Shown here: positions 3,513 through 51,167 of the stretch, in pieces | Position numbering within the stretch: position 1 is the first letter of the stretch | Layout of the letters: each line of letters starts with the position of its first letter | DNA from: an uncultured Methanobrevibacter sp. | Lineage (GTDB): Archaea > Methanobacteriota > Methanobacteria > Methanobacteriales > Methanobacteriaceae | Assembly (NCBI GenBank): GCA_900314605.1 | Contig: OMVX01000026.1 | Span: 1 to 64,000, forward strand | Direction of reading: 5' to 3' | Length of the DNA: 64,000 nucleotides | The notes under the pieces: model-generated | What the model was told of the DNA's origin: nothing | What the model saw: only the letters and a program-made list of their open reading frames with translations | The model's database searches: none | Translations under genes and position numbers: made by a program

Positions 3513-4499
3513 AGATTATTATTTAATCTAATAAATCTAAAACCCTCCGTATCTATATATACTGCGGAGTTAAGTCTTACATCATATCCCGATGAAAATT
3601 CAACTAATGCAACAATTACTGTTTTAAAAGGAGATACAAATGTTTTTATCAACCCTATTATTGATGTTAAAGTAGGAAATGAAATAACAATCACTTATAA
3701 TACAAACAGTAATGGAACAGTAACAATTAAAGTTAATGGTGAGGTCATCCCTGATGGTAAATTTACTCCAACAAATGTGGGTACTTATAATGTTACTGTA
3801 GAAGTTGCAGAAAATGATTATTACATATCAGGATCAAATGAAACCACATTCACAGTTGAAAAATCTTCAAGTAAAATTTTAGCTAGTCCTGTAAGCACTA
3901 CTTATAATGTAGGTAAATATTTGGTCATTACATTAAAAGATGAAAATGGTAAAGCTATTAGTGGTGCATTATTAACAGTTAACTTAGGTAGTACTAAAAA
4001 ATATAATACTAATGATAATGGTCAGGTTAAAATCAATGTTGGTACACTTACACCAAAAACCTATAATGCAAAGATTAGCTATGCAGGATCTGATAGTTAT
4101 AAAGGTTCTACTGGATCTGTAAAAGTTACAGTTAAAAAGGCTAAAGCTAAAATAACTGCAAAATCAGCAAGCTTTAAACTTAAATTAAAAACTAAAAAAT
4201 ATGCTGCTGTCTTTAAAGACAATAAAAACAAAGCTATAAAAAACACAAAAGTAAGTTTAAAAGTTAATGGTAAAACTAACATTGTTAAAACTAATAATAA
4301 AGGTCAAAGTATTTTTAAAATAACTAACCTTAGAAAAATAGGTTCCTATATTGCTGTTATTACATTTCCAGCAAATAAATACTACAACAAAGTAACTAAA
4401 AAGGTAAAGATTCTAGTTAAAAAATCGCATTATATTAAAATTAATATAAAGAGTTTACAATATCCCTTTATAATTTTTTTCTTTTTTTTTAAAATCTAA
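3513..4499 (+). pseudogene. 5'-truncated adhesin-like protein fragment
   Basis: The reading frame is open from just after a TAA at 3510-3512 to 4499 and encodes Ig-like, Thr/Asn/Lys-rich repeats of the adhesin-like type. A Lys-rich C-terminal domain (about residues 210-300) matches the style of those ending the two large adhesins near 46 and 51 kb. No signal peptide, Shine-Dalgarno sequence or start codon precedes it; the first usable start is a GTG at 3777 inside an Ig-like repeat. After the expected end (KILVKK) it reads on into a low-complexity tail (IIFFFFFKI), as if the original stop was lost. I read it as a relic of a larger gene. Confidence 0.65.
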
Positions 4500-24646: not shown

Positions 24647-25384
24647 TAGTTCCACAGTATTTATTTTAAAGTTTTTAAGCAGAATTACAGCTCCTATAAT
24701 GTGTTTTTTCATTTCGAAGGATATTTTTACACAAGTAATGTTCATGCCTATATAAAAAGATTATTTATATTCGCTATAATTTCTTATATACCCTATGCTT
24801 TATGCTTCTCAGGAAATTTTATTCCAATTTATTTGGTTAAAGGTACTGTAGTTCCTACTACTATAATTCCATACGGACCAATATCTATTACATATCCTTT
24901 ATTTTTAAATTTTATCAATTCCACTTTAGTTGTATGTGAAAACAGTATGTTTTTCACTTTATTTTTAGATTTGATAAGTATATTTTTATGGGACAAAATC
25001 AATATTCCAGTTTGGGCTAAATTTTTAATTACCCTTGTATTAATGTATCTTGCTTCATTTTCAGATTATTCTTATTTTGGAGTCTTATTTTGTTTAGCAT
25101 TTTATTTTTTAAGAAACAAACCATGGTTCTAATTTATTTCATTTTCTATAATTTCACTTTTATACATATTTCATGTATCACCAGATAATCCTTTTATTTT
25201 TTCTTGGTCTATTGAATTTATGCCTGTTCGAATTGGTGTATTTTTAACTCCTCTTCTTTTGTTGTTCTTTAATGGTGAAAGTGGTAGTAAATCTTCCTTT
25301 AATAAATGGTTTTTTTATATTTTCTATCCTGCTCATTTATTATTAATAGGTTTGCTAGCTACTTTTATCGGAGCATATGTTTAA
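24647..25384 (+). pseudogene. TraX-family membrane protein, broken
   Basis: The readable protein is a TraX-type polytopic membrane protein: FLSRITAPIMCFFIS, then EGYFYTSNVHAYIKRLFIFA, and a C-terminal FYIFYPAHLLLIGLL that is typical of the family. It is broken in at least two places. A frameshift near 24713 separates the FFIS segment from EGYFYTS, and a TAA at 25130-25132 interrupts the frame, which then continues to 25384. The usual first helix with its DHIG-like motif is missing. TraX homologues acetylate pilin in bacteria; an O-acetyl-transfer role in the ancestor is plausible. Confidence 0.75.
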
Positions 25385-38951: not shown

Positions 38952-39018
38952 TTTTAAATTTCTTTGAAACATTTCTTTATGAAAAATGTATTTTTTTTAA
39001 TTAGAAATAAAATAATAT
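38952..39018. other. Short AT-rich spacer before IS element
   Basis: A T-rich run (38990-38999) probably ends the acyltransferase transcript. Nothing else is seen before the IS left end. Confidence 0.3.
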
Positions 39019-40274
39019 TTAGGGGTCTGAAATTTTTTGCTTAAAAATCGGGCTAAAATCTCTTATTTTTTATATTTATAAGATTCATTAATGATAATTC
39101 ATAAAAATACAATTTAATTTTCATTTTAATTTTAATAAAAAGGGTCTTTATATCGTTAAATTTTAATAGTATGTGTTACATATATTTATTTGGTAATTAT
39201 AATGAAACACAGATTAAATTTAGATATTAAAGACCCGAATTATAGTTTGTTGAAAGAAATATTTAAAATTATGGATTGCAGATAATCTTCTGAAATTTTA
39301 GCTTCCTATGGTTTTAAAAACATTGATAAACAAGTATTTATATTTAAAATCATATTTATAAGCATGTTTTTTGGTTTAGACATTCCATTTATCTTAAATG
39401 ATCTAGAATATAAAGAAAAACTTCGCAAATACTTTAATATTTCAGAGGTTTTAAGCGCTGATCAAGTTTATAAAAATTTTTCAAACCAAAATTCTGAAAA
39501 ACTTGTTAAAGCATTAAATCGTATTATAAATTCTAGAAATTGTGTTAAAAGAAGAGGAAAAAGACTTTCATTGTTAATGCAACACCAATGGACTTAGATA
39601 TTAATTTCCATAGAAATAAAAAGACTAAAAAAAATCTTGAATACTTGAATTTAAAATAGAGTTATTCATCTTCTAAAGGATTTTATATTGGATTTAAAAC
39701 AACCATTATAATGGATTTCGATAGTATAAATCCTGTTTCTATTTTAATCCATTCTGGAGCTCCCAATGATGCAAAACTTTTTGATGAAAATATGGAAAAT
39801 CTTCATAAAAGATGAATTATTCAAAAAAGAGATACTTAATTTTGGATAAAGGATATTACAGCTATAAAAATTACCAATTAGGAATTAGCAAATACAAAAT
39901 CATTCCTTTTATTTTCCCAAAAGACAATTTCAAAAGAAACAAACTTAATGACCAATTATCCTATCCATTACCATCATTTATGAAAATAAAGAAAATTAAA
40001 ACAGAGAAAAGATTTTTTAAAAATTAAAAACATGAATTAATAAAAAAAATTAGATAATTGGAAAAAATTTAAACCAATTAGAGGACAAATAGAAGATTTT
40101 TTTAAATTACTGAAACAAGGACTTAATTTAAGAGGAATTCATAAATATATTCCAAAATCTGTTGAAAAAACAGTATATATGAATGTATTTTTAGGAGTTT
40201 TATCATATAGCTAGAATTTAACTCAAAAACAGCCATACAACAATTATCAGAGAACTAAAAAATTCAGACCCTTA
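39019..40274. mobile_element. Degraded IS element with ~20-bp inverted ends
   Basis: The left end ttaggggtctgaaatttttt (39019-39038) and the right end (40255-40274, reverse complement ttaagggtctgaatttttta) form imperfect terminal inverted repeats. They enclose a broken transposase. The length of about 1.25 kb and single-gene layout are like the small IS elements of methanogens such as ISM1, but I cannot assign a family. No clean target duplication is visible. Confidence 0.8.
39202..40213 (+). pseudogene. DDE transposase, multiply disrupted
   Basis: From the ATG at 39202 (MKHRLNLDIKDPN) the frame is stopped by TAA at 39283-39285. A frameshift near 39560 precedes NATPMDLDINFHRNKKT. Further stops follow (TAG after EYLNLK, TGA after NLHKR) and another frameshift leads to LILDKGYYSYKNYQL. 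The last piece holds RGQIEDFFKLLKQGLN. The Asp (MDLD), Asp (LDKG) and Glu (QIED) fit a DDE transposase of IS4-like type. It cannot be functional. Confidence 0.85.
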
Positions 40275-40520
40275 AAATCATTATATTTTTATATAAATTA
40301 AATCATAACATTATTGTAAAAAAAAAAAAATTATCTAGTTAGGAGATTTTTAAAATTATTTATTGTATATATTAATTTTGTTTTCATATTATTTTATTAG
40401 ATAATTTTTTTATGTATTGTTTTGAACAAATATATGTTTATTTGGTTAACGGCATATATTTATTTTAATTCATTCTTTAAGATGAATTATTAAATTTTAA
40501 AAAGTTATGGAGGGTTTAAA

Positions 40521-42437
40521 TTTAGGTTTAAATTAGTCTTTGGTATTGCATTAATTTTTATCTTATTTTTAGGTGTAGGTCTTGTTTCTGCAAGTGAAAT
40601 TGATAATGATGATGCAAGTAGATTAACAGATTATAATATTAAGACTACATCGGTTAATAATGATGGTATTAGTGAAAGTGATGATATTGGTGTGAATGCT
40701 AAGGAAAATAATGATGATACAAATTTCAAATCTTTATCTGCTAGTAATGGTGATAAGGGTGATTTAAAAGATAGTAATGAGGTTTTAAATTTTAGTAGTT
40801 TAAATAATACTATTAATTCAGGATCATCTATTATTGTCTTAGAAAATAATTACACTTATGATAATAGTACTGATTCACGTTTTATTGAATTTGGTGGTAT
40901 TGTCATTAGTCGTGATTTAACTATTGATGGTCAAGGTCATACTATTGATTTAGGTGGACAAATAAGATTTTTAAATGTTAATAATTATTCTATAACATTA
41001 AAAAACATTAATATTATTAATGGAATAACAGTAGGAGAATTTCATGGTGGTGCAGTTCTTATTAATAATGGTAACTGTACAATTATAAATTCCACATTTA
41101 CTAATAATGTTGCATATGCATGTGGTGGTGCAGTAGCTGTTATGACGGGTAATTGTGAAATTATAAATTCTACATTTGATAATAACAATGGACAGTTTGG
41201 TGGTGGACTTGGTGTTAGAGGTAATGCTAGTGTTATAAATTCTACATTTACTAATAACCAAGGAGCTTTTGGTGCTGCAGTTGATATACGGGATGGTATT
41301 TGTAGTTTTATCAATAATTCTTTCATAAATAATGTTGTATACAGATATGGTGGTGCTATTGACCTTTCCCGTGTTAATTATACTTTTATTAATTCAATAT
41401 TTAACTATAATCGTGGAGACTTTAGGGGTGGTGCTATCGCCATAGAAGATTCTAATGGAAGTTTTATTAATGCTACATTTATGGGTAATAAAGTAACAAA
41501 TCCTAATAGTGATGGTGGGGGTGCAGTTTTCATTATAGATGTGATGGGTGTTTCAGTTCATACTACCTTTATCAATTCTAAATTTTTGAATAATACTGCA
41601 ACACTTAATGGTGGTGCAGTTCACCTTGGTGGGGATTGTAACTTTATTAATTCTACATTTATTAATAATACTGCACCTGAGGGTGGTGCATTATATCTGT
41701 ATGGTGGTAGTGGTAATTTTACTAATGTTACCTTCACATCTAATATAGCTCAAGAATATGGTGGTGCAGTCCGTAGTTATGGGACTTTCAATAATTTTAC
41801 AAATGCTTTATTTACTGAAAATTATGCAAAATATGGTGGTGCGGTCTATATAACTGGTAGTGGTAATTTTAACAATGCTACATTTGCTGATAACAATGTA
41901 AGTAAATCTGGTGGTGCATTATATCTGTATAGTGGTAGTGGTAATTTTACAAATAGTATATTTAATAACAATACTGCTAGTGTTTCTGGTGGCGCTGTAT
42001 ACTTTTCTAGAAGTAATGGTATTTTGACCAATTCTACATTTGATGATAATAGGGCAAATTCTGGTGCTGCAGTTTATACTGAGGAGGATAGTGGTGGTGC
42101 AGTTTATATTAAACGGGACGGTATGTTTACTGATTCTAAATTTAATAATAATAGTGCTCAATATGGTGGTGCAGTCTTTATTAATAATGGTAGTTGTACA
42201 ATTATAAATTCTACATTTACTAATAATTCTGCATCAGCACATGGTGGTGCATTATATCTGTATGGTGGTAGTGGTAATTTTACAAATAGTATATTTAATA
42301 ACAATACTGCTAGTGTTTCTGGTGGTGCTGTATACTTTTCTAGAAGTAATGGTATTTTGACCAATTCTACATTTGATGATAATAGGGCAAATTCTGGTGC
42401 TGCAGTTTATACTGAGGAGGATAGTCAGCTAATATAG
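40521..42437 (+). CDS. Adhesin-like protein, N-terminal part (frameshifted)
   Basis: A signal peptide (RFKLVFGIALIFILFLGV...SA) precedes an acidic Asn/Asp-rich linker and a right-handed beta-helix built of PMP-like repeats (GGAV, STFTNNxA). The first standard start is a GTG at 40692, which would lose the signal peptide. The strong GGAGGG at 40509-40514 lies 6 bases before TTT at 40521, exactly as GGAGGA precedes ATT in the second adhesin, so the start is probably there. The frame ends at TAG 42435-42437 after a recombination junction at 42425; the remaining protein continues in another frame. Confidence 0.75.
   Translation, partial: FRFKLVFGIALIFILFLGVGLVSASEIDNDDASRLTDYNIKTTSVNNDGISESDDIGVNAKENNDDTNFKSLSASNGDKGDLKDSNEVLNFSSLNNTINSGSSIIVLENNYTYDNSTDSRFIEFGGIVISRDLTIDGQGHTIDLGGQIRFLNVNNYSITLKNINIINGITVGEFHGGAVLINNGNCTIINSTFTNNVAYACGGAVAVMTGNCEIINSTFDNNNGQFGGGLGVRGNASVINSTFTNNQGAFGAAVDIRDGICSFINNSFINNVVYRYGGAIDLSRVNYTFINSIFNYNRGDFRGGAIAIEDSNGSFINATFMGNKVTNPNSDGGGAVFIIDVMGVSVHTTFINSKFLNNTATLNGGAVHLGGDCNFINSTFINNTAPEGGALYLYGGSGNFTNVTFTSNIAQEYGGAVRSYGTFNNFTNALFTENYAKYGGAVYITGSGNFNNATFADNNVSKSGGALYLYSGSGNFTNSIFNNNTASVSGGAVYFSRSNGILTNSTFDDNRANSGAAVYTEEDSGGAVYIKRDGMFTDSKFNNNSAQYGGAVFINNGSCTIINSTFTNNSASAHGGALYLYGGSGNFTNSIFNNNTASVSGGAVYFSRSNGILTNSTFDDNRANSGAAVYTEEDSQLI
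41910..42092 (+). repeat. 183-bp direct repeat, copy 1
   Basis: The block 41910-42092 (61 codons, GGALYLYSGSG to TEEDS) is repeated at 42243-42425 with about two base differences. In copy 1 the frame continues normally (SGGAVYIKRDG). The two copies lie in the same frame, 333 bases apart. Confidence 0.9.
42243..42425 (+). repeat. 183-bp direct repeat, copy 2, ending at frameshift junction
   Basis: This near-identical copy of 41910-42092 ends exactly where the frame breaks. After it, three bases (cag) lead into 42429-42460, a copy of 41740-41771 (ctaatatagctcaagaatat and onward) in a different frame. The junction therefore joins two sites that do not match. Confidence 0.85.
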
Positions 42438-45400
42438 CTCAAGAATATGGTGGTGCAGTCTTTATTAATAATGGTAGTTGTACAATTATAAATTCCACAT
42501 TTACTAATAATTCTGCATCAGCAGATGGTGGTGCAGTCTTTATTAATAATGGTAGTTGTACAATTATAAATTCCACATTTACTAATAATTCTGCATCAGC
42601 AAATGGTGGTGCACTCTCTATTAAATATGGTAATTGTACAATTGTAAATTCTACATTTACTAATAATTCTGCATCAGCAGATGGTGGTGCAGTTCTTATG
42701 AATAATGGTAGTTGTACAATTGTAAATTCTACATTTACTAATAATTCTGCATCAGCAAATGGTGGTGCACTCTCTATTAAATATGGTAATTGTACAATTA
42801 TAAATTCTACATTTATTAATAACACTGCAAAGTATGGGGGTGCTATTTTCTTAAATTTTGTTAATTATACATTTACAGATTCAACATTTAAATATAATAT
42901 TGTAGAGATGGATGGTGGTGCTATCTCCATATTAGACGCTTCTAGTGGAAGTTTTATTAATGCTACATTTATGAATAATAAAATAAATGGTCTAGAATAT
43001 AGTGAGGGTGGTGCAGTTTGCATTATAGATAGGACTGGTTCTAAATATCTTAATACATTTATCAATTCTAAATTTCTGAATAATAGTGCAACAAGGGGTG
43101 GTGGTGCAGTTTATACTGATGGTATTTGTAATTTTATTAATTCTACCTTTATTAATAATACTGCATATACTGGTGGTGCAGTCCGTATGAATTCATATTA
43201 TGGTAATTTTATAAATGTGACCTTCATAGATAATATAGCAGTATATAGAGGTGGTGCAGTCTTTTGTAATGGGGATCCCTTTAATTTTACAAATGCCCTA
43301 TTCATTAGAAATTATGCAGAAGATGGTGGTGCAGTCTATAATATGGGTCACGCTAATTTTAACAATTCTACATTTACTGATAACCATGTAAATGGATCTG
43401 GTGGTGCATTATATCTCTATAGTGGTGGAGGTAATCTCACAAATAATATATTTAATAACAATACTGCTGATATTTCTGGTGGTGCTATATTCATTTCTAG
43501 GTATAATACTAATGTTTACAATTCTACATTTGCAGATAACATTGCAAATTCTGCTGCTGCAATTTATATTGTAGAAAATACGGTTACATTGGATCCTCTA
43601 TATGTTACTTTTATAGATTCTACTTTTATTGGTAATAATGCTACTGTTGGAGGTACTATTTTCTTAAATAATTCAAAACAGCATTCAGTGTTTAAAGTTA
43701 CTAAGTCTCAGTTTAAAGATAATATGGGTAATATTGTTTATTTAACCAATGCTGACAATATTACTATTGATAATGATACTAGGGCTTTAAGTGACTTTGA
43801 TTTATGTTGTATATATACAAACATGACTGCTATAGTAATGAATTATTTCTATGATTCAACAGGTCATATTTTAGTTAATGTCTCCTGTCTTGATATTCAT
43901 CTGCCTTATGGGATTATTCAAATTATAATTGGCAATAAAACCTATACTGGATATTTAATAGAGGGTCAAGGTGTAATTGACCTTGATGGCGTTAATGTAG
44001 GATATTATGCAGTATCCGTTTTATATAATGGTTCTTCTATATGGGCCAAATCATCTTCAAATGTTAATTTTACAGTTTTTAAGAAAGATGTTGATATGGA
44101 TCTTTCTATAACTAATATTACATATGGTGAAGATGCAGCAGTGGAAGTTATCTTTAATGAAACTGTAGAAGGATTTGTTTATATTAAATATGATGGAAAA
44201 ATATATAATGTAACTGTAAATGGTAGTAAAGCAACAATTATTCTTGATCAATTAGATGCAGGTAATTATACTTTTGATGTTACTTTTGATTCTAATAACT
44301 ATAATCAAACTATTCAATCAGTTAATCTTACAGTATTTAAAGCTAATTCTACTATATCTGCTAATGTAGAAGATGAAGATTATATGGAGAATATTATAAT
44401 TAATGTTACAACACCTTGTGAAGATGGGGTAATTTATGTTGTAATTAATAATCAGACATATAAGGGATATGTTATAGGTGGTGAAGGAAGTATTATAGTA
44501 ACTGATTTAGAACCTGGTTTTTATACTTGTAATGTAACATATAATGGTTCTGATAATTATAATTCTTGCGTTGTTCCTGTTAATTTTACTGTTAATAAGT
44601 TAAATGTTACTATTGTTACTAATGTTGAAATTGATGATAATAATGATGTGTTAATTCATCTTTTAGTTGATGGTGATGATGGTGTGGCTTATGTGATTAT
44701 TAATAATAATACTTATACAGGTCGTATTGTTAATCGTACTGGTGTTATTAATATAACTGATTTGCTTTCAGGTTATTATGAGACTAGTCTTGTTTATAAT
44801 GGTTCAGTTCATTATAATCCTTCTCTCGTTCCTGTTAATTTTACTGTTGATAAATATGATTCTGCAATTTCTGTTAATGTAGTTGATGTTGTTTATGGTA
44901 AGGATGTTATAGTTAATGTTACAACTGACTGTGATGACGGTGAAATTTATATTGAATTGAATGGTCAAAAGTATAGAGGGTATATTCTTGATGGTAAGGG
45001 AAGTATTATAATTCCTTCTTTAGAGCCTGGTTTTTATATTTGTAATGTTACATATACGGGTTCTGATAATTATAATCCTTGTGTTGAATCTGTTAATTTT
45101 ACAGTTAATAAGATTAATTCTACTACTAATACTTTTGTAGAACTTAAGAATGGTGATGTTTATATTAATGTTTTAACTACTGGTGAGGATAGTGTAGCCT
45201 ATGTTATATTTAATGGTACAAATTATACTTGTAATATTACTGGTGGTCAAGGCATGATTATGATTACAGGTTTAGATGCAGGTTATTATGATGCTAATTT
45301 AACTTACGTTGGAAATAAATATTATAATCCTAGTATTTCATATGTAAATTTTGTTATAGGAGATAAAATAGATTCTTCTATATTTGTTAATACATCTGAT

Positions 45401-46231
45401 GTTGTTTATGGTAATGATGTATTAATTAATGTTAGAACCGATTGTGATGATAGTATTGTTTATGTTATTGTAAATGGTCAAATATTTGAGGGAAATATTA
45501 TTGATGGTATTGGTTTAATTAGAGTTAGTGGTTTAGATGCTGGTAATTATGAGTTTAATGTAACATATAAAGGATCAGATATTTATAAACCTTGTGTTGC
45601 ATCTGTTAATTTCACAGTTAATCCTCAATCTACTTGTATCCGTGCTAATGATGCTAGCTATATTATAAATTATGGCGGTACCTATAAAGTTAACTTTGAT
45701 CCTTTACTTGAAGGAGTAAATATTACCTTTACTATAAATGGTAAAAATATATCTTCAACACTTACTGATAAATCAGGTATAGCTGTTATTAATTTATCTC
45801 CATCACAATTAAGTTCTATTGGTGCAGGTTCTCATAATATGATTGTAAGTTTTGCAGGTAATAAAAATTATCTTCCATTTAATACTACAGTAAAAGTCAG
45901 TATTAATAAGGAAAATACATTGTTTTCTAATGTTAAATCAGTTAAAAAATACTATAAAAGTAATGCTAAAGCTATACAGTTAACTGCAACATTAAAAAAC
46001 AGTAAAAATAAAGTTATAAAAAACCAATGGGTTTACTTTAAAGTTAACAATAAGAAAACTTATAAGGTAAAAACAAATTCCAAAGGTGTAGCTAAACTTA
46101 CACTCAACCGTGCTAAAATTAAAGCTTGTAAACTTAATAAAAAAGGTAATTATAAGTTCACTGTAACTTATAAAACTACTAAAACATTTAAACAGGCTAC
46201 TAAAAACGGTAGATTAAAAGTTTTAAAATAA
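42431..46231 (+). CDS. Adhesin-like protein, C-terminal part (frameshifted)
   Basis: The frame resumes at 42431 (NIAQEYGGAV) and continues the PMP-like beta-helix to about 43720. A linker follows, then about six Ig-like repeats of 90-95 residues (SITNITYGEDAAVEVIF, DAGNYTFDVTFDS and related) to about 45620. A Lys-rich C-terminal domain ends the protein (VKSVKKYYKSNAK...GRLKVLK). The first ATG is at 42698, with no ribosome site or signal peptide, so this half is unlikely to be secreted alone. Together with the preceding part it makes one surface protein of about 1900 residues. The domain layout is that of methanogen adhesin-like proteins. Confidence 0.75.
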   Translation, partial: NIAQEYGGAVFINNGSCTIINSTFTNNSASADGGAVFINNGSCTIINSTFTNNSASANGGALSIKYGNCTIVNSTFTNNSASADGGAVLMNNGSCTIVNSTFTNNSASANGGALSIKYGNCTIINSTFINNTAKYGGAIFLNFVNYTFTDSTFKYNIVEMDGGAISILDASSGSFINATFMNNKINGLEYSEGGAVCIIDRTGSKYLNTFINSKFLNNSATRGGGAVYTDGICNFINSTFINNTAYTGGAVRMNSYYGNFINVTFIDNIAVYRGGAVFCNGDPFNFTNALFIRNYAEDGGAVYNMGHANFNNSTFTDNHVNGSGGALYLYSGGGNLTNNIFNNNTADISGGAIFISRYNTNVYNSTFADNIANSAAAIYIVENTVTLDPLYVTFIDSTFIGNNATVGGTIFLNNSKQHSVFKVTKSQFKDNMGNIVYLTNADNITIDNDTRALSDFDLCCIYTNMTAIVMNYFYDSTGHILVNVSCLDIHLPYGIIQIIIGNKTYTGYLIEGQGVIDLDGVNVGYYAVSVLYNGSSIWAKSSSNVNFTVFKKDVDMDLSITNITYGEDAAVEVIFNETVEGFVYIKYDGKIYNVTVNGSKATIILDQLDAGNYTFDVTFDSNNYNQTIQSVNLTVFKANSTISANVEDEDYMENIIINVTTPCEDGVIYVVINNQTYKGYVIGGEGSIIVTDLEPGFYTCNVTYNGSDNYNSCVVPVNFTVNKLNVTIVTNVEIDDNNDVLIHLLVDGDDGVAYVIINNNTYTGRIVNRTGVINITDLLSGYYETSLVYNGSVHYNPSLVPVNFTVDKYDSAISVNVVDVVYGKDVIVNVTTDCDDGEIYIELNGQKYRGYILDGKGSIIIPSLEPGFYICNVTYTGSDNYNPCVESVNFTVNKINSTTNTFVELKNGDVYINVLTTGEDSVAYVIFNGTNYTCNITGGQGMIMITGLDAGYYDANLTYVGNKYYNPSISYVNFVIGDKIDSSIFVNTSDVVYGNDVLINVRTDCDDSIVYVIVNGQIFEGNIIDGIGLIRVSGLDAGNYEFNVTYKGSDIYKPCVASVNFTVNPQSTCIRANDASYIINYGGTYKVNFDPLLEGVNITFTINGKNISSTLTDKSGIAVINLSPSQLSSIGAGSHNMIVSFAGNKNYLPFNTTVKVSINKENTLFSNVKSVKKYYKSNAKAIQLTATLKNSKNKVIKNQWVYFKVNNKKTYKVKTNSKGVAKLTLNRAKIKACKLNKKGNYKFTVTYKTTKTFKQATKNGRLKVLK
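42449..42838 (+). repeat. Five tandem 78-bp repeats inside adhesin
   Basis: Units begin at 42449, 42527, 42605, 42683 and 42761, each starting ggtggtgca and encoding 26 residues of the GGAxxINNGSCTIxNSTFTN type. Units 1 and 2 are nearly identical; 3 and 5 are alike and 2 and 4 are alike, so the array has grown by pairs. A further unit lies at 42165-42242. One unit is one or more turns of the beta-helix. Confidence 0.9.
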
Positions 46232-46695: not shown

Positions 46696-48477
46696 ATGTG
46701 TGGTATAGTAGGTTGTGTATTAAAACAAAAGAATGCAGCACCTATATTACTTGATTGTATCTCTAAACTAGAATATAGAGGATATGATTCAGTAGGTATT
46801 GCAACAGAAAACAATAAAATCTATATTAAAAAAGATAAAGGAAAAATCATTGATGTTAACACTAATCTTGATTTAGCAGATATGGAGGGCCAAAGTGGTA
46901 TTGCTCATGTACGTTGGGCAACACATGGAGATCCAAATAAACTTAATTCTCACCCTCATACTGATGAAGAAGGTTCTATTGCTGTAGTCCATAATGGTAT
47001 TATTGAAAATTATGATCAAATTAAAGCTCGTTTAATTAGTGAAGGTCATGAATTTAAATCTGATACTGATACTGAAGTCATTCCACATTTACTTAAAGAC
47101 TTTATGAATGAAGGTTTAAGCCTTGAAGAAGCTATGAGGGAAACTGTTAAAGTTATTCATGGTGCTTATGCAATTGCTGCAGTATGTGTTGATGAACCTG
47201 GTAAGGTTGTTGCAACAAGAAAGGACAGTCCTCTTATTGTAGGTATTGGAGATGGGGAATTTTTTGTAGCTTCCGATTCTCCTGCTATTTTAAAGTATAC
47301 AAATAATATTATTTATCCAGAACGAGATGAAATTGTCACATTAACTATGGATGGAGTTAATATTACTGATATTGAAGGTAATGTTTTGGATAAAGAAATT
47401 GAAACTATTGATTGGACTCCAGAAATGGCTCAAAAAGAAGGTTTCGATCACTTTATGATAAAAGAGATTTATGAGGAAAGTGATGCTGTAAGAAATACCT
47501 TAACTGAAAAAGAAAGTATTAGGGAAATTATTGATGATGTAAAGGATGATATTAATAAAATTGTCTTTGTAGCATGTGGTACTAGTTATCATGCATCACT
47601 TACAGGTAAATATTTAATAGAATCAATGAGTGGTATAACAACAGAAGTTCTACTTGCCAGTGAATTTAAATATTCTGCTAAAACATTAGATGAACGTACT
47701 CTTGTAATATTTATATCACAATCTGGTGAAACTGCAGATACTTTAAAAGCTCTTGATGTTGCAAATGAAACTAGTAAAACTCTTGCTATTGTAAATGTTG
47801 CAGGATCTTCTGCAACTCGTAGAGCAAAATATGTTATTCAAACTCAGGCAGGTCCTGAAATAGGGGTTGCAGCAACAAAAACATATATCTCACAGTTAAC
47901 TGCAATTTATTTACTCGCTGCACTTCTTGCAGATAATCAGGAATTGCTTGATAAGTTAGAAAAGGTACCAAATTATATAGATGAGATTTTAGAGGATGTT
48001 GAACCTCTTAAAATTATGACAGAGAAATATAAATACACTGATGATTTCTTCTATATTGGTAGAGGTTTTGTTTATCCTACAGCACTTGAAGGTGCACTTA
48101 AACTTAAAGAAATTACTTATATTCATGGTGAAGGTTATGCTGCAGGCGAATTAAAACATGGTCCACTTGCACTTATAGATAACTGTATACCTGTTGTGGT
48201 TATATTACCTCCAGGTGAAAATCATAGGAAAACCATGTCTAATTTGGAAGAAGTTAAATCCAGAGGTGCTGATGTTATAGGTATTGGTGCTAAATCTGAT
48301 GAAGGTATTATTAACAAATCTAAGGATTATTTCTTAATTAATGATGAGGTTGATGATATTATAGCACCACTTGTATATATTATTCCTCTACAGTTAATGA
48401 GTTATTATATTGCTGTTGAGAAAAACTTTGATCCTGATAAACCTAAAAACTTAGCTAAGTGTGTTACAGTAGAATAG
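46696..48477 (+). CDS. glmS: Glutamine-fructose-6-phosphate aminotransferase
   Basis: The class II glutaminase domain (MCGIVGCV, Cys2; HVRWATHGDPN; HNGIIENY) is followed by two SIS isomerase domains (FVACGTSYHASLTGKY, ISQSGETADTLKAL, EIGVAATKTYISQ) and the typical end PKNLAKCVTVE. It makes glucosamine-6-phosphate from fructose-6-phosphate and glutamine, the entry to UDP-GlcNAc and to pseudomurein and surface glycans. GTAGGAGG precedes the ATG. Length 593 is normal. Confidence 0.93.
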   Translation: MCGIVGCVLKQKNAAPILLDCISKLEYRGYDSVGIATENNKIYIKKDKGKIIDVNTNLDLADMEGQSGIAHVRWATHGDPNKLNSHPHTDEEGSIAVVHNGIIENYDQIKARLISEGHEFKSDTDTEVIPHLLKDFMNEGLSLEEAMRETVKVIHGAYAIAAVCVDEPGKVVATRKDSPLIVGIGDGEFFVASDSPAILKYTNNIIYPERDEIVTLTMDGVNITDIEGNVLDKEIETIDWTPEMAQKEGFDHFMIKEIYEESDAVRNTLTEKESIREIIDDVKDDINKIVFVACGTSYHASLTGKYLIESMSGITTEVLLASEFKYSAKTLDERTLVIFISQSGETADTLKALDVANETSKTLAIVNVAGSSATRRAKYVIQTQAGPEIGVAATKTYISQLTAIYLLAALLADNQELLDKLEKVPNYIDEILEDVEPLKIMTEKYKYTDDFFYIGRGFVYPTALEGALKLKEITYIHGEGYAAGELKHGPLALIDNCIPVVVILPPGENHRKTMSNLEEVKSRGADVIGIGAKSDEGIINKSKDYFLINDEVDDIIAPLVYIIPLQLMSYYIAVEKNFDPDKPKNLAKCVTVE

Positions 48478-48620: not shown

Positions 48621-48660
48621 TCAAAATATGGAATTTGAAAACTCACTATACATTTAAAAT

Positions 48661-48837
48661 GTTTATATTCTTTATTAAAATAAATTAAAAAAATATTCTT
48701 TATTAAAATTAATTTAAATGTTTATATTCTTTATTAAGATAAATTAAAAAAATATTCTTTATTAAAATTAATTTAAATGTTTATATTCTTTATTAAGATA
48801 AATTAAAAAAATATTCTTTATTAAAATGTTTATATTT
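48661..48837. repeat. 59-bp tandem repeat, three copies
   Basis: The unit starts gtttatattctttattaa and recurs at 48661, 48720 and 48779; the last copy is partial. Copies 2 and 3 share one base (aagat instead of aaaat). It is non-coding and lies in the promoter region of the adhesin gene, so changes in copy number could alter promoter spacing. Confidence 0.8.
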
Positions 48838-48920: not shown

Positions 48921-51167
48921 ATTAAGTTAAAATCAATTTTTGTTTTAACAATGATTTTATTTCTATTTTCATGTTTAAGTTTAATTTCTGCAACTAATGT
49001 TAATATAGATGAATCTCTTGATTCAACAGATTATAGTATACAGGAACTATCAAACAATGATTATTTAGATAATGAAGAAATTAGTTTAGTCAGTAATCAT
49101 GATAAAAATTCTAAAGATAATGGTGAAAGTGTAAAAGCTAATGAGGGTAGTTTAGATATTAGTCAATTAAATCAGACCATTAATTTAGGTTCTGAAGATA
49201 CTATCAAATTAGAAAATGATTATGCATTTAACAATAATACTGACTCTGGTTTTATAGAAACCGGTGGTATAATATTGGAACGTAGTTTAACTATTGATGG
49301 TCAAGGCCATACTATAGATTTAGGTGGAAAAATAAGATTTTTAAATACTTCAAACAATACTTTAACTTTAAAAAATATTAATATTATTAATGGTTTCTCA
49401 ATGGTGGATGGTGGTGCATTATATTTAGAAGGTAATGCTACTATCAGTAACTCTACATTTACAAATAACAATGTAAACCATCATGGTGGTGCAATATATA
49501 TAGTAAATAATATTACAGATATCCTCGATTGTACATTTATCAATAATAATGCTTATGGTCAGGGTGGTGCAATTGCTACAGAGAATCATCTTACTGTTAA
49601 TATAAAAGATTCACAGTTTTTAGAAAACAATGCAACTAAAGGTGGTGCATTAAGTATTTATGGTATTGTTATAATTGAGGATTCCATTTTTAAAAACAAC
49701 TATGTATCTGGTTCAGGAGGAGCATTTTTTAAGATGGGAGGTCGTGTGAACATTACAAAATCTGAATTTATAAATAATAGTGCAGGGATTGGTGGTGTAT
49801 TTTTTACAAATGGAGGTACAGTTAATATTAAAGAGTCTTCTTTTTATAATAATACTGCTTATACTGGTGGTACTGCTTTTCAGGAAGAATATACAAAAAT
49901 AAATATTAAAGATTCTAAATTTAGAAATAATTCTAAAGATAATATTGTTTGCACTGAAATAAGAGATGATATTAAGGTAGATGATAAAACAAAAGATCAT
50001 AGTGATCCTAATTTGGTTCTTACATATACTGAAATGGAGGTTGACATTAAAAATTATACATATGATACTATAGGTACCATTGAGTATAATGTTTATTGTG
50101 CAGATGGAACGGATATTGATGAAGGGATTATGATTCTTTTAATTAATGATGAAATATATAAAATCCAAAATATCACTCATGGTGGTAGTGGATTCATTAC
50201 TCTTTTAGGTTTCGATGCAGGAAACTATAATTTATCTCTTATATATAATGGAAGTTCTGATTTTGCAAGTTCAATATTTGGACCAATTAATTTTACAGTT
50301 AATAAACATAATATTGATATGAATATTACCTCAAATAATATTACTTATGGTAATATTGCTTTATTTAATATTACAATTGAAAATATTACTGATGGGGTAG
50401 CATCTTTGATTTATAAGAATAAAACTTATTCTACTAATATTACTGGTGGGGTGGGTTCTATTTATCTTAATGGATTAGATGCAGGTAATTATAACTTTAA
50501 CATTACTTTTGATTCTAAAAATTATTATGCAACTAAAAATATTAATTTAACTGTAAATAAACAAGCTACTCGTATTATTGCAAAAAATGCAAATTATATT
50601 ATAAATTATGGCAGCTCATATAAAGTTAGATTAAATAAGAAAGTTGCTAATCTTAAGGTTCAATTTTTATTAAAGGGTAAAACTATAGCCACTACTAAAA
50701 CTGATGCTTCAGGTCTTGCAAAAATTAAATTATCTTCTGCTCAATTAAAAAAAGTAAGAGCAGGTACATGGAAAATGATGGTAATTTTCCAAGGGGATAA
50801 AAACTATGTTAACTCTAATGTTACTACTAAAATAACTATTAAAAAAGAAAATACTAAATTGTCAAATGTTGGACCTTTAAAAAAATACTATAAATCTACT
50901 GATAAAACAATGCAGTTAGTAGCTAAATTATTAAACAGTAAAAATAAAATTGTTAAAAATCAAATAGTTTACTTTAAAGTTAACAATAAAAAAATATTTA
51001 AAGTAAAAACTAATGCTAAAGGGGTAGCTAAACTAACACTAAATGCTCCACTAATAAAGAAATGTAAATTAAACAAAAAAGGCAAATATAATTTTACTGT
51101 AAGCTATAAAACTACATCAACATATAATCAATGTAGAAAAAATGGCCGTATAACAGTTATAAAATAA
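48921..51167 (+). CDS. Adhesin-like protein with non-canonical ATT start
   Basis: The signal peptide (KLKSIFVLTMILFLFSCLSLISA) precedes an acidic linker and PMP-like beta-helix repeats (about residues 80-330, GGALYLEGNATISNSTFTNN). Ig-like domains and a Lys-rich C-terminal domain (KKYYKSTDK...GRITVIK) like that of the first adhesin complete the chain. The first ATG (48951) falls inside the signal peptide's hydrophobic core and would drop the basic start. AGGAGGA at 48908-48914 sits 6 bases before the in-frame ATT at 48921, which gives the usual KLK start. Probably exported and held to the pseudomurein wall. Confidence 0.8.
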   Translation: MKLKSIFVLTMILFLFSCLSLISATNVNIDESLDSTDYSIQELSNNDYLDNEEISLVSNHDKNSKDNGESVKANEGSLDISQLNQTINLGSEDTIKLENDYAFNNNTDSGFIETGGIILERSLTIDGQGHTIDLGGKIRFLNTSNNTLTLKNINIINGFSMVDGGALYLEGNATISNSTFTNNNVNHHGGAIYIVNNITDILDCTFINNNAYGQGGAIATENHLTVNIKDSQFLENNATKGGALSIYGIVIIEDSIFKNNYVSGSGGAFFKMGGRVNITKSEFINNSAGIGGVFFTNGGTVNIKESSFYNNTAYTGGTAFQEEYTKINIKDSKFRNNSKDNIVCTEIRDDIKVDDKTKDHSDPNLVLTYTEMEVDIKNYTYDTIGTIEYNVYCADGTDIDEGIMILLINDEIYKIQNITHGGSGFITLLGFDAGNYNLSLIYNGSSDFASSIFGPINFTVNKHNIDMNITSNNITYGNIALFNITIENITDGVASLIYKNKTYSTNITGGVGSIYLNGLDAGNYNFNITFDSKNYYATKNINLTVNKQATRIIAKNANYIINYGSSYKVRLNKKVANLKVQFLLKGKTIATTKTDASGLAKIKLSSAQLKKVRAGTWKMMVIFQGDKNYVNSNVTTKITIKKENTKLSNVGPLKKYYKSTDKTMQLVAKLLNSKNKIVKNQIVYFKVNNKKIFKVKTNAKGVAKLTLNAPLIKKCKLNKKGKYNFTVSYKTTSTYNQCRKNGRITVIK

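Follow-up and report, generated by a model that had tools for sequence, protein, structure and literature searches.

The gene at 40521-46231 is an adhesin-like protein (ALP) gene from a Methanobrevibacter-type archaeon, of a known kind and from an ordinary gene family, and its reading frame breaks at 42425/42426. Either faulty assembly or plain decay probably accounts for the break. Loss of a single base at an assembly join is the leading explanation, with about an even chance of being correct, and ordinary decay ranks a close second. That the gene is a switch operated by repeat recombination is possible but improbable. The case calls for caution, as adhesin genes rich in repeats can look frame-broken at repeats of assembler length in methanogen genomes assembled from short reads; such apparent breaks could inflate pseudogene counts and yield false candidates for phase variation. 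A break that proved genuine and reversible would be a rare instance of archaeal adhesin switching.

The window analysed here, the whole stretch of 64,000 nucleotides, makes up nearly all of a 64.2-kb contig in a draft genome of 2.37 Mb and 103 contigs. About 40 ALP genes are present in the genome of this gut Methanobrevibacter-type archaeon, and the gene under study is one among them. It is composed of two parts:

40521-42434, forward strand: N-terminal part, a signal peptide followed by right-handed beta-helix repeats (Beta_helix, Chlam_PMP, Pectate_lyase_5)
42425-46231, forward strand: C-terminal part in an open frame, with beta-helix repeats, Ig-like Big_3_5 repeats and a basic C-terminal domain

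The beta-helix repeats of the N-terminal part match PF13229 (E 7e-17) and PF02415 (E 5e-31), and the Ig-like (Big) repeats that come after the beta helix, in the C-terminal part, match PF16640 (E 2e-25). A hydrophobic N-terminus, KFRFKLVFGIALIFILFLGVGLVSAS, read by eye from the translation and present in paralogs too, is consistent with a signal peptide or membrane anchor. The suggestion that this is an adhesin is thus borne out, in the sense of an adhesin-like surface protein with beta-helix and Ig-like repeats. In methanogen adhesin-like proteins, a signal peptide, a beta helix and Ig-like repeats are the standard arrangement (PMC11532034), and the ALPs of Methanobrevibacter and Methanosphaera share with this gene an N-terminal signal or anchor, a right-handed beta-helix, archaeal Ig-like (Big) repeats and membership of a large multi-copy family (PMC11532034; AbM4 genome, PMC3746419). 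Unlike those ALPs, the gene is split over two frames, with the break at 42425/42426, and has no recognisable start codon, carrying TTT at the start position. Within the ALP family it thus counts as broken or mis-assembled.

Downstream lie glmS (46696-48477) and a second ALP gene (48921-51167); three nearly identical tandem copies of a 59-bp sequence (98%) occupy the intergenic stretch 48652-48827 upstream of the latter. Transposase-like remnants, two open reading frames lacking a Pfam match, are found just upstream of the ALP gene (39286-40024), and the adjoining sequence at 39002-39330 resembles sequence near glmS in relatives. An orthologous locus was sought within the genus (three other genomes) as well as in collections of genomes, viruses and phages, and none was found at the corresponding place; the contigs of the three relatives stop approximately 340-630 bp upstream of glmS. 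The closest homolog, in a sister genome (G002:C43), shares only 55% identity across the part of the C-terminus that matches.

The region of the break is a mosaic of repeats:

41910-42092, forward strand: first copy of a 183-bp block
42243-42425, forward strand: second copy of the block, with 2 mismatches to the first; its first 41 bp equal 41682-41722
42327-42425, forward strand: exact 99-nt repeat of 41994-42092, whose right end is the break and whose size is that of the assembly's contig overlap
42425-42426, forward strand: frame-changing junction, from frame 0 to frame 2
42429-42460, forward strand: exact 32-bp copy of 41740-41771 in another frame, at a distance of 689 (2 mod 3)
42435-42437, forward strand: TAG stop met in the upstream frame
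42238-42443, forward strand: net insertion of 206 bp between two 78-bp repeat units, read from an exact 52-bp repeat (42160-42211 = 42444-42495, distance 284)
42447-42829, forward strand: tandem array of about 4.9 copies of the 78-bp unit, in the downstream frame

The original prediction had described the duplicated 183-bp block, a switch after its second copy to a copy of 41740-41771 in another frame with a stop at 42435, and an intact C-terminal 3.8 kb in the new frame, and all of these are confirmed and lie far beyond chance. The two mismatches between the copies sit at block positions 22 and 84. The 99 bp form the longest exact repeat within the gene, bounded on the left by a single mismatch. 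The inserted 206 bp consist of the second block and an 18-nt patch, so that the junction reads as a block copy, then the patch, nearly all of which equals 41740-41757, and then a repeat unit. Donor cassettes for the insert were sought across the rest of the genome, where just weak matches (65-80%) were found. The downstream frame stays open over 42425-46228 and closes with TAA at 46229-46231; the two halves of the gene are open for 647 and 1268 codons, respectively, with no further stop.

A separate defect lies at the 5' end of the gene:

40509-40514, forward strand: Shine-Dalgarno-like GGAGGG, read directly from the sequence, a motif that also precedes the paralogs
40521-40523, forward strand: TTT where relatives have ATT in an ungapped comparison with the G002:C43 homolog, the L069 paralog and the paralog at 48921; the start codon is missing

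The codon at 40521, where the prediction had the gene begin, is TTT and cannot be counted as a start. Paralogs carry ATT, ATA or ATG at this position, and in a gapless alignment from the Shine-Dalgarno motif a second TTT, at 40527, matches the ATG of the G002:C43 homolog. No in-frame ATG, GTG or TTG occurs from the stop at 40491 to the GTG at 40692, which is already past the signal peptide. Therefore, a repeat event alone would not render the gene translatable by the usual rules.

In many ALPs whose long frames are intact, ATT, ATA or ATC stands in place of ATG, GTG or TTG at the expected Shine-Dalgarno distance before the signal peptide, an observation for which the automated scan was too noisy to be used as a statistic. 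Such genes are found at 48921-51167 in the window and at L069 3589-6075, L074 2239-4983, L080 440-6406, L082 5123-9799, L086 5438-8602 and 11257, L126 4939, L131 2902 and L160. In one family of ALP paralogs, ATA stands precisely at the position of ATG in the others. These adhesins may start at near-cognate codons.

Repeats of k-mer length can produce misjoins in short-read draft assemblies. Here, exactly 99 nt are common to the contig ends in several pairs, including C88L/C16R, C63L/C96R and C20R/C32R, as is characteristic of de Bruijn assembly from short reads; the assembly also has N gaps, and its smallest contigs are about 2 kb. The frame of the ALP gene breaks exactly where an exact repeat of this overlap length ends. 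The only other 99-nt coding self-repeat in an ALP, L078 3615-3713 = 4118-4216 (contig C73), has a break of the same type exactly at the left end of its second copy; an assembly defect of this kind is probable there too. No break falls at the ends of the remaining 17 coding self-repeats in the ALP sequence analysed (60-96 nt; stretches totalling 0.95 Mb of the 2.37-Mb genome), and the 79- and 96-nt coding repeats tested carried no frame break. Breaks at repeat ends are thus seen in 2/2 repeats of 99 nt versus 0/17 of 60-96 nt (Fisher p ~0.006), a comparison that was made post hoc, after the coincidence had been noticed, and that rests on just two 99-nt coding repeats. A third interior repeat of 99 nt (L078 343 / L174 16585) is non-coding and hence uninformative. 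It should be noted that interior repeats matching exactly over 96, 97 and even 101 nt are also present, so that 99 nt is no absolute ceiling.

It is because of the 2/2 versus 0/17 breaks and the match to the overlap length that the loss of one base in assembly leads. The mosaic suggests that repeat units of the beta-helix array were duplicated and patched, and that the array drifted in this way. The frame discrepancy is most likely absent in the cell: a short-read assembler would have bridged an exact repeat of 99 nt, as long as its overlap, and dropped one base at that join. The assembly signature, the 99-nt coincidence and the occurrence of this defect in another ALP are shown, and the opening of both halves without another stop is counted on the same side. 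As with misjoins at k-mer-length repeats, the defect falls precisely at the end of an overlap-length repeat, twice in one assembly; the misjoin itself is inferred from the assembled sequence. Assembly error over the repeats, which the original prediction had itself named as grounds for giving it up, has thereby become the leading explanation. The claim that the break arose by repeat recombination stands insofar as the duplicated block is pieced together from repeats lying upstream, but the frame loss itself may be absent in the cell, given the overlap-length coincidence and L078.

Several observations speak against an assembly error and for a real pseudogene, a reading with somewhat less than an even chance, in which illegitimate recombination or a replication template switch would have inserted the 206 bp out of frame, the start codon having been lost before or soon after, as part of a wider decay among the adhesin genes. 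Without a crossing read, a de Bruijn path is not expected to create the adjacency at the junction, and the 20-mer spanning 42425/42426 occurs once in the genome; further, a real rearrangement likewise ends where the repeat ends. The mosaic junction fits such an event. The missing start codon falls in unique sequence, which suggests a truly dead gene. Several other ALPs of the genome are broken as well: L069, L070, L076 and L121 carry one-base breaks away from the known 99-nt repeats, a sign that real decay is common, and truncated copies are found at L067 and at 3513-4496 of the window. The break in L070 coincides with the end of a 56-nt repeat; as it falls inside an A-run, it is read as an ordinary one-base change. 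In L077 (2134-2201, contig C63), an exact 34-bp tandem duplication within a beta-helix repeat of an ALP shifts the frame. Conserved housekeeping genes in the window are unbroken, and the G002:C43 homolog is itself frame-broken. Intestinal Methanobacteriota are reported to exceed other lineages in pseudogenes and adhesin-like proteins (PMC13135261). However, decay leaves the coincidence of the break with the end of a 99-nt repeat unexplained, here and in L078, and would have to be very recent, with both halves still fully open.

Bacterial repeat-mediated phase-variable adhesins have a repeat array in a surface-protein gene, where a length change not divisible by three silences the downstream part. 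The ALP gene resembles them in its array and in the cutting off of its downstream part by such a change, and phase or antigenic variation would mean that cells of the population turn the adhesin on or off by repeat recombination, which we regard as improbable. All 18 of the exact repeats of at least 20 nt that span the junction are spaced 2 mod 3, whereas those confined to either side are all spaced 0 mod 3; a homologous deletion across the break would in principle restore the frame, and the C-terminal frame is intact. Yet this spacing is no evidence of switching, because any loss of frame among coding repeats is expected to show it. The prediction that a second event could restore the frame accordingly holds for the spacing but not for the gene, which would not be turned on: the frame can be toggled, and the start codon is absent. 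Artefact or not, the gene is no demonstrated switch, because the start codon is missing too. Unlike the bacterial adhesins, it has no short or simple-sequence repeat tract at 42425/42426 and no recombinase or invertible element among the Pfam-annotated genes of the window, and its break falls on an assembler-length repeat. An intact alternative copy or strain variation was not found with one genome per species compared, and none of the papers searched linked adhesin-like proteins, Methanobrevibacter and phase variation. For these reasons, together with the L078 parallel, the view of a switchable or variable surface protein is not supported. The frame-shifting duplication in L077 speaks for repeat-driven switching, but most other ALP breaks are one-base changes and not repeat events. 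A wider proposal, that gut methanogens switch individual ALPs by out-of-frame recombination in beta-helix arrays, by the 206-bp mosaic insertion here and the 34-bp duplication in the C63 ALP, is a shade less probable still. Programmed frameshifting at the start or at the junction, by which the sequence as it stands would give a full-length protein, was considered and set aside as very improbable: a U UUA AAU-like heptamer does lie in the short frame of ATG 40507, just before the signal peptide frame, but such a motif is expected often at 25% G+C, that ATG shares sequence with the Shine-Dalgarno motif and lacks one in front of it, and no slippery sequence is present at 42425.

As a candidate for reversible slippage, the 34-bp duplication in L077 is better than the gene at 40521-46231. 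Elsewhere in the window, the truncated copy at 3513-4496 is a C-terminal ALP fragment without a signal peptide, and a TraX-like gene at 24650-25381 lies in two reading frames or pieces and is likely a pseudogene.
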